A DNA stretch of 30,280 nt. It comes from Acidobacteriota bacterium (GTDB lineage Bacteria > Acidobacteriota > Terriglobia > Acidiferrales > UBA7541). Of this stretch, positions 1,488 to 1,680 are shown piece after piece (within the stretch, counting starts at the first letter, position 1; each line of letters opens with the position of its first letter). The DNA is taken from contig PMOP01000260.1 of NCBI GenBank assembly GCA_003161495.1, positions 1 to 30,280 on the forward strand. Direction: 5' to 3'. Position numbers and translations under genes: made by a program. The notes below the pieces were generated by a model. It had not been told where the DNA came from and did not search any database. It was given only the letters and a program-made list of their open reading frames with translations.

Positions 1488-1530
1488 AAAATGAAAATCC
1501 CACCGCCAGTGATGTTCCGGCGGTGGGATT
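1488..1530 (-). terminator. Intrinsic terminator in the leader of the sulfonate-type ABC operon (attenuator terminator)
   Basis: A perfect 12-bp stem (1519-1530 with 1496-1507) with an 11-nt loop is followed on the minus strand by TTTTCATTTT. It lies after the Cys-rich upstream ORF and before the first structural gene, so it can only act as a conditional terminator. Its 5' arm is also part of the proposed antiterminator. Folding energies were not computed. Confidence 0.8.
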
Positions 1531-1579
1531 CTAGAATTGCTCGCTATGATTCTAGAGTATTTAGGTCCCGGCGCCAGAA
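1515..1579 (-). promoter_or_regulatory. Proposed antiterminator helix competing with the leader terminator
   Basis: Bases 1579-1566 (UUCUGGCGCCGGGA), which are the last codons of the upstream ORF, can pair with 1528-1515 (UCCCACCGCCGGAA), which contain the 5' arm of the terminator. Twelve of 14 positions pair (one G-U) with a 2x2 mismatch in the middle. The enclosed segment holds a further perfect 8-bp hairpin (1556-1549 with 1537-1530, from the repeated TCTAGAAT) that ends one base from the helix, so the two could stack. Antiterminator and terminator are mutually exclusive. The pairing was found by eye. Confidence 0.6.
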
Positions 1580-1644
1580 GACGCAGACATATGGCAGGTA
1601 CAACAGAGGCAGGCCTGCTTGGTCTTCTGGACGTGGTAATTCAC
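1561..1644 (-). CDS. Cys-rich leader peptide (27 codons), candidate cysteine attenuator uORF
   Basis: A short ORF starts at GTG 1644-1642 and stops at TAA 1563-1561. Residues 11-18 read ACLCCTCH, giving four Cys in six positions (12, 14, 15, 17). The GTG lies 7 nt after a consensus -10 box, so the transcript would begin at or next to the start codon, and no ribosome-binding site is present. The peptide resembles no enzyme. Its position between promoter and terminator, upstream of a sulfonate-type ABC operon, fits a leader peptide whose translation senses cysteine or charged tRNA-Cys. A ribosome stalled at codon 17 would leave bases 1579-1566 free; one reaching the stop codon would cover them. 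Cys-rich leaderless uORFs that control sulfur genes are known in mycobacteria; the analogy is mine. Confidence 0.72.
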   Translation of the reverse strand: MNYHVQKTKQACLCCTCHMSASSGAGT

Positions 1645-1651
1645 GGAAGGG

Positions 1652-1680
1652 ATTATATCGCGGTACGGTCCGAAAGTCAA
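1652..1680 (-). promoter_or_regulatory. Sigma70-type promoter for the Cys-rich leader and ABC operon
   Basis: On the minus strand TTGACT (1680-1675) is separated by exactly 17 bp from TATAAT (1657-1652), the best promoter match I found in the window. The expected start site coincides with the GTG of the Cys-rich ORF, predicting a leaderless message. The promoter lies 58 bp downstream of the tRNA-Cys gene on the same strand, so tRNA read-through could also feed the operon. Confidence 0.8.

Follow-up and report, generated by a model that had tools for sequence, protein, structure and literature searches.

A probable cysteine-responsive transcription attenuator on a putatively leaderless transcript in an acidobacterium

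Overview

The leader of an ABC transporter operon in the window -- the whole 30,280-nt stretch of DNA analysed here, an entire contig whose end falls within the operon's second gene -- is most probably a cysteine-responsive transcription attenuator of the trp/his type, carried on a leaderless transcript; judging from sequence, we put the probability of this reading at roughly 85%. The Cys-rich frame at the start of the transcript probably lets soil acidobacteria activate their sulfur genes only when cysteine is short.

Three helices compete in the leader: a:b, the antiterminator b:c and the terminator c:d. In the proposed mechanism, the transcript would start at or next to the GTG of an upstream ORF (uORF), and a ribosome would load on the 5' end and follow the polymerase closely. 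With Cys-tRNA(Cys) scarce, this ribosome would stall on the Cys cluster and cover segment a; b, being free, would pair with c as it emerges, c:d would not form and the transporter genes would be transcribed. With ample cysteine, the ribosome would reach the stop codon just past b and mask it, c would pair with d and transcription would stop; with no translation, a:b would form and the terminator would win again.

The window locus

The features of the locus are listed in Table 1. A first-pass annotation had described the promoter, a 27-codon uORF with its four Cys codons and a terminator followed by a U-tract, all of which were found again, the terminator stem having 13 bp (1529-1517 with 1509-1497, then the U-rich tail TTTTCATTTT) where 12 had been given. 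An alternative helix using the 5' arm of the terminator was likewise recovered, and segment b lies where its left arm had been placed, in the last uORF codons. On the checks that sequence allows, the interpretation given there holds for the most part. The attenuation geometry drawn from these parts was correct, but only two of the three competing helices had been described, a:b being missing; the hairpin between b and c and the tRNA-Cys(GCA) gene had also been passed over.

Table 1. Features of the leader and its surroundings in the window
Feature	Position	Strand	Remarks
tRNA-Cys(GCA) gene	1811-1738	-	ARAGORN and Rfam tRNA model; directly upstream of the leader promoter
Promoter TTGACT-17-TATAAT	1680-1652	-	-35 starts at 1680, -10 ends at 1652; 11/12 matches
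uORF VNYHVQKTKQACLCCTCHMSASSGAGT	GTG 1644 to TAA 1561	-	27 codons; putatively leaderless
Segment a (CCAGAAGAC)	1630-1622	-	Partner of b; folds and a:b swap test
Helix a:b	1630-1622 with 1582-1574	-	Inside the uORF
Control codons Cys12, Cys14, Cys15, Cys17	1611-1594	-	In the uORF
Segment b	1582-1566	-	Last uORF codons; alternative partners a or c
Antiterminator b:c	1579-1566 with 1528-1515	-	12/14 positions paired
Hairpin TCTAGAAT/ATTCTAGA	1556-1530 (arms 1556-1549 / 1537-1530)	-	Between b and c, within b:c
Segment c	1529-1515	-	Terminator 5' arm and antiterminator partner of b
Intrinsic terminator c:d	1529-1487	-	Includes the U-tract
SsuA/TauA-like periplasmic binding protein gene	1450-371	-	Pfam NMT1_2; GTG 1450 is the assumed start
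ABC transporter ATPase gene (SsuB-like)	374-3	-	Pfam ABC_tran; cut by the contig end

The start codon lies 7 nt past the end of the -10 element. The control codons are placed by a codon-pattern match at 1594-1617, and Cys clusters are found in related leaders too; the hairpin between b and c is conserved in the four aligned leaders of the window's genus. The top-scoring solved relatives of the binding protein are an aliphatic-sulphonate- and a taurine-binding protein, with modest scores, so that the label "sulfonate-type" given to the operon in the first-pass annotation is fair but unproven. A strong 13-bp terminator-like site with a T8 tail (1921-1892) follows the outer-membrane barrel gene in the window.

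Related leaders

Searching with SsuA led to two related loci, L009 (86% identity) and L010 (80%), which carry VKSYVQKTKQACLCCTCCTCASSGAGV and MILDVQTIKQACLCCLCCMSASSGAGRLIL, respectively, each with a similarly spaced promoter, a terminator and an upstream tRNA-Cys gene, and with ORFs for all three transporter parts. L010 was missed by the first uORF screen because a porin-like gene sits between its leader and ssuA. A codon pattern run against the family hit 4 of 89 genomes, each belonging to the genus of the window; the last of these hits, L092 (the same place as L096), is upstream of an outer-membrane barrel gene, and its uORF, with those of L009 and L010, is a close homologue of that in the window.

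A covariance model built from these four leaders (R1) matched in 68 of 95 genomes of the order (E<=0.01), a tally that also counts antisense and weak matches; hence 110 of the 147 listed places were taken and scanned for uORFs, and one was found in 107 (75 Cys-type, 28 Thr-type and 4 other). A second model (R2), spanning about 39 nt before the uORF stop codon through the terminator, matched in 132 of 399 genomes of the class (E<=0.001), 71 of them in the window's family and 61 in others. Among the 40 loci fetched with it, 34 of which are outside the window's family, 22 have an ORF with at least four Cys in nine codons in the 75 nt upstream of the match (0.38 expected). In a sample of the phylum, 23 of 396 genomes had matches, 12 of them outside the class, with a best E value there of 5.1e-9. 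The full sampled set, including the class and phylum loci, holds 117 Cys-type leaders, from 83 genomes, and 28 Thr-type leaders; since they were found with models containing the terminator, its presence in them is no independent evidence. The Cys clusters, whose conservation the first-pass annotation had named as a check, thus recur widely, though the number and spacing of Cys differ from leader to leader. Three leaders are present in the genome of the window itself: besides the one described here, there is one at the end of a contig and another that precedes a siroheme-type reductase gene.

As a control, R2 was run on 50 genomes whose loci carry a label other than Acidobacteria, and it matched twice (E 1.8e-4 and 7.2e-4); of these matches, L269 looks like a true Cys/Met leader and L270 shows no leader. 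L269 (1645-1568, - strand), from a genome labelled Omnitrophota, has a Cys/Met-rich uORF and a terminator, with GCTCTCTT in the uORF matching AAGAGAGC in the hairpin; its uORF has a Shine-Dalgarno-like site and is therefore not leaderless, and the gene downstream looks by eye like a PAPS reductase. Similar switches may exist outside the Acidobacteriota.

A putatively leaderless start

Of the Cys-type leaders, 85 of 117 carry a promoter of the form TTGNNN-16/18-TANNNT within 75 nt upstream of the uORF, against 3.8 expected from shuffled sequence. The distance from the end of the -10 element to the start codon is 5-10 nt in 68 of them, against an expected 0.5, the start codons having been picked without reference to promoters. 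Only 9 of the 28 Thr-type leaders have this pattern (1.1 expected). Shine-Dalgarno-like 4-mers are present in 11 of the 145 Cys- and Thr-type leaders. The promoter spacing suggests that the uORF starts at the 5' end of the transcript.

Folding of the leader

The 175-nt leader of the window folds better than all 200 of its dinucleotide shuffles (z -3.58), and the leaders of three relatives have fold z-scores of -4.69, -4.71 and -4.47. With a ribosome modelled at the Cys codons and the 3' arm of the terminator not yet made, b:c is the minimum-energy fold in the window; blocked to just past the Cys codons, the window and L010 give b:c enclosing the middle hairpin, while in L009 and L092 the antiterminator is present with additions. 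With everything blocked to the stop codon, the terminator alone forms in all four leaders. When the complete leader is folded, the terminator is favoured over the antiterminator even with a stalled ribosome, which means that switching would need to happen while the transcript is still being made. The uORF stop codon of L010 and L092 is displaced 9 nt downstream relative to the window, and a ribosome there would mask b less fully. When segment b of the window was shuffled by mononucleotide, 24 of 2000 shuffles did as well as the real b:c duplex taken alone; a single sequence is therefore weak evidence for this helix, and it is the relatives that make the case.

Covariation, swap tests and the reading frame of b

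Pairs were counted in a MAFFT alignment (A5) of 68 Cys-type leaders, left after seven divergent ones of the 75 had been dropped by eye; it was used because the covariance-model alignment (A3) was too gappy. For b:c, 86.5% of cells are paired, with double changes in 6 of the 12 pairs (27 such cells) and a covariation score of 0.108, and on each of the five measures all 500 shuffles fall short; when the partner is slid, 36-48% are paired. For c:d, 96.1% of cells are paired in the 68 leaders, again with none of 500 shuffles as high. The shuffles for these two helices do not control for descent; within that limit, the covariation that had been looked for in both is there.

The pair between alignment columns 25 and 110 is U-A in 30 leaders, C-G in 15, U-G in 4 and G-C in 1, with 15 unpaired and 3 gapped among the 68. 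In the common frame, column 25 falls on the third position of a Ser codon, and column 110 lies in the loop of the terminator, so that b:c is the only one of the helices that explains this pair; both of its main types recur over several genera and before several operons. Read together, the bases of a, b and c are U/A/A in 22, C/G/G in 10 and G/U/C in 1 of the 68 leaders, the other 35 fitting one partner or neither, but since the a-side base was read off the predicted a:b duplex, its pairing is built in, and the claim for a:b thus rests on the swap test. There, the mean energy of a leader's own a:b was -15.36, against -13.03 for swapped segments (n=68), with none of 5000 permutations as low. The same test for b:c gave -20.91 against -19.67 (n=75), also with 0/5000 as low, the leader's own energy being better than its mean swapped value in only 46 of the 75. 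In the Thr-type leaders, the b:c swap test showed no effect (698 of the 5000 permutations did equally well, and 12 of 27 leaders beat the mean), perhaps because there is little variation among them.

The motif of segment b was found in 54 Cys-type leaders, being read in frame 0 in 51, frame 1 in two and frame 2 in one; the resulting peptide is VSSG in the common frame-0 case, VFWL in L254 and L256 and CLLA in L257. Three leaders before aspartate kinase genes (L230, L233 and L239) read b in frame 2, as CLLE, CLLE and ALLE. Segment b is thus read in three frames, and so is conserved as RNA rather than as peptide. Runs of Thr before aspartate kinase are carried on the same RNA frame.

Downstream genes

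The genes behind the leaders were tallied as the first reference gene within 3.2 kb downstream, the reference set being drawn from the same loci and named from single representatives. The genes fit the amino acid of the leader: one of sulfur or cysteine metabolism comes first in 102 of the 117 Cys-type leaders, although, many leaders being orthologous, these counts are not independent events. The commonest are 3-mercaptopyruvate sulfurtransferase-like genes (31), CysD (23) and siroheme-type reductases (22), followed by family 2A encapsulin (9), cysteine synthase (4), SsuA, TauE and CysG (3 each), sulfate-binding protein (2) and DsrE2 and CysH (1 each); the sulfurtransferase, reductase and DsrE2 representatives score below the NCBIfam cut-offs. 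The siroheme-type reductases could be nitrite or sulfite reductases. The exceptions are nine outer-membrane genes (seven barrels and two porins), one asd and five with no reference match, two of which are L129, with 286 nt of contig left, and L188, before a tRNA-Cys gene. Behind the Thr-type leaders lies aspartate kinase in 27 of 28 and asd in the other.

Large outer-membrane barrel genes follow the Cys leaders at L096, L097, L098 and L265, and are candidates for the uptake of sulfur compounds. At eight encapsulin-type loci (L240, L241, L244, L245, L248, L254, L256 and L257), a Cys leader precedes a cysteine desulfurase of the type that is the cargo of family 2A encapsulins, with the shell gene also called in six of the eight; the family 2A encapsulin of Synechococcus rises on sulfur starvation, according to the part of PMC8049743 that deals with it. 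Other codons are seen as well: WYWW in L282, before a DAHP synthase and a trpE-like gene; CWW in L289, before a trpE-like gene; Met and Cys in L284, before O-acetylhomoserine sulfhydrylase-like genes (for L283, which is the same place, the reading covers just the end of the uORF); and the branched-chain codons of VLLLIGVSVVLLI in L292, before ilvD and a gene judged by eye to be ilvB.

SsuA proteins of at most 67% identity were found on 18 acidobacterial-labelled contigs. In all 12 that were examined (L011-L020, L023 and L025), the start of an Rrf2-regulator-like ORF lies directly upstream of ssuA, three of these ORFs having been sent to Pfam and matched as Rrf2, which rules out ssuA orthology alone as a predictor of the leader; G010 (SsuA 67%) nonetheless has a Cys leader. 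The position of the 12 Rrf2-like ORFs suggests that protein and RNA regulators replace each other upstream of ssuA.

A tRNA-Cys gene lies upstream of the Cys leader in three genomes of the window's genus (those of the window, L009 and L010). It is also found on the same strand, downstream of the sulfurtransferase gene, in 14 of 33 loci with a leader and that gene (L099, L100, L101, L104-L109, L117, L141, L150, L160 and L200), some of the 33 ending too early to tell. In L188 (- strand), a Cys leader at 3747-3585 is followed after about 36 nt by a tRNA-Cys gene at 3548-3475, so that the sensor tRNA may control its own transcription there.

Alternative explanations

The Cys-rich peptide might itself be functional (for example metal- or redox-binding), the uORF being translated for the sake of its product. 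Clustered cysteines can coordinate metals, and a VQKTKQACLCC-like core is common to the leaders of the window's genus, but the number and spacing of Cys vary, Thr runs take their place on the same RNA frame before aspartate kinase, and the peptides searched (ten in NCBIfam and eight in Pfam) match no family at the curated score. The three reading frames of b, kept as RNA, disfavour such a peptide, and we regard it as very improbable. Even less credible is that the terminator belongs to the transcript of the upstream tRNA-Cys or outer-membrane gene and that the uORF is a chance ORF. The tRNA-Cys gene does lie directly upstream of the leader, but a promoter stands between it and the uORF, the outer-membrane gene has the terminator-like site of its own, and the Cys cluster and the spacing of the promoter come back much more often than chance would give, including at loci with no tRNA-Cys found close by; the recurrence of the Cys cluster in relatives rejects a chance ORF.

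The most serious rival, though still an unlikely one, is that the uORF acts on translation or on Rho-dependent termination, as has been suggested for the cysteine uORFs of mycobacteria, the hairpin being an ordinary terminator. It draws on the leader peptides of mycobacterial cys operons, given without conserved terminator hairpins in the relevant part of PMC1262725, and on a review whose section on mycobacterial leaderless ORFs has them act on downstream translation (PMC9031893). Against it, b covaries with the arm and loop of the terminator, a pairing which would have no role there. Transcription attenuation remains the preferred reading.

A possible modular leader

We consider it reasonably likely that the Acidobacteriota use one modular chassis, a leaderless uORF with segments a, b, c and d, reloaded with different codons. 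The Cys regulon would then take in sulfate assimilation, sulfonate and sulfate uptake, 3-mercaptopyruvate sulfurtransferase, compartments of encapsulin and cysteine desulfurase and, in places, a tRNA-Cys gene, while Thr codons would serve aspartate kinase and Met, Trp and branched-chain codons a few other cases. If true, this chassis would be the first cysteine attenuator with an intrinsic terminator, and a main sensor of amino acids in a phylum where hardly any attenuator has a known function; in a 2010 survey, almost none of the predicted acidobacterial attenuators had an associated function, as given in the portion of PMC2965389 on this phylum. Acidobacteria are widespread in soil, and the leaders would give a rule for how many of them may sense cysteine and threonine. 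They would also tie sulfur-storage encapsulins and a tRNA-Cys gene to the cysteine supply, and join, in one conserved RNA, putative leaderless translation with classical attenuation.

Relation to known systems

No Rfam family matched the leader RNA in the window or in six leader loci; the T-box model gave nothing at the gathering score in the window or at E<=1 in the six loci, no SAM riboswitch (S-box) aptamer was detected in any of these leaders, and both identities were rejected. A SAM riboswitch was seen in L110 (1113-1226, - strand) near a Met/Cys-rich leader, on the opposite strand and outside the leader. No report of an acidobacterial case of this attenuator was found in one limited literature collection. 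The T-box leaders of Firmicute cysteine genes sense tRNA aminoacylation and control an intrinsic terminator, as the acidobacterial leaders would also do; unlike them, the latter have a translated ORF as the likely sensor, and no Rfam T-box match.

Mycobacterial cys operons were predicted in 2005 to have Cys-rich leader peptides (PMC1262725), later described as leaderless and cysteine-dependent (Canestrari 2020, as cited in the relevant part of PMC9031893). As far as the sections of PMC9031893, PMC4633059 and PMC1262725 on these polycysteine uORFs go, the acidobacterial leaders resemble them in having, ahead of sulfur genes, short ORFs that contain runs of Cys and that are leaderless in mycobacteria and putatively so here. 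The mycobacterial leaders, as PMC1262725 presents them, have no conserved terminator, whereas terminator and antiterminator covary here, with c:d 96.1% paired; because the terminator is present, the acidobacterial leader falls outside the mycobacterial kind as it has been described. The likeness to mycobacterial and to proteobacterial leaders is one of features.

Leader-peptide attenuation is classical in the trp, his and thr operons of proteobacteria. Like those attenuators, the acidobacterial leaders have an ORF rich in the regulated amino acid, with clustered cognate codons (in the window and in the 117 Cys-type and 28 Thr-type leaders), and three mutually exclusive helices, on comparative evidence an antiterminator and a terminator that exclude each other and the protector helix a:b of the swap test; they also have an intrinsic terminator, and genes of the cognate pathway downstream (102 of 117 Cys-type, 28 of 28 Thr-type). 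They differ from the proteobacterial attenuators in the probably leaderless uORF, in the cysteine signal to which they would respond, and in carrying the codons of different amino acids on related RNA segments.
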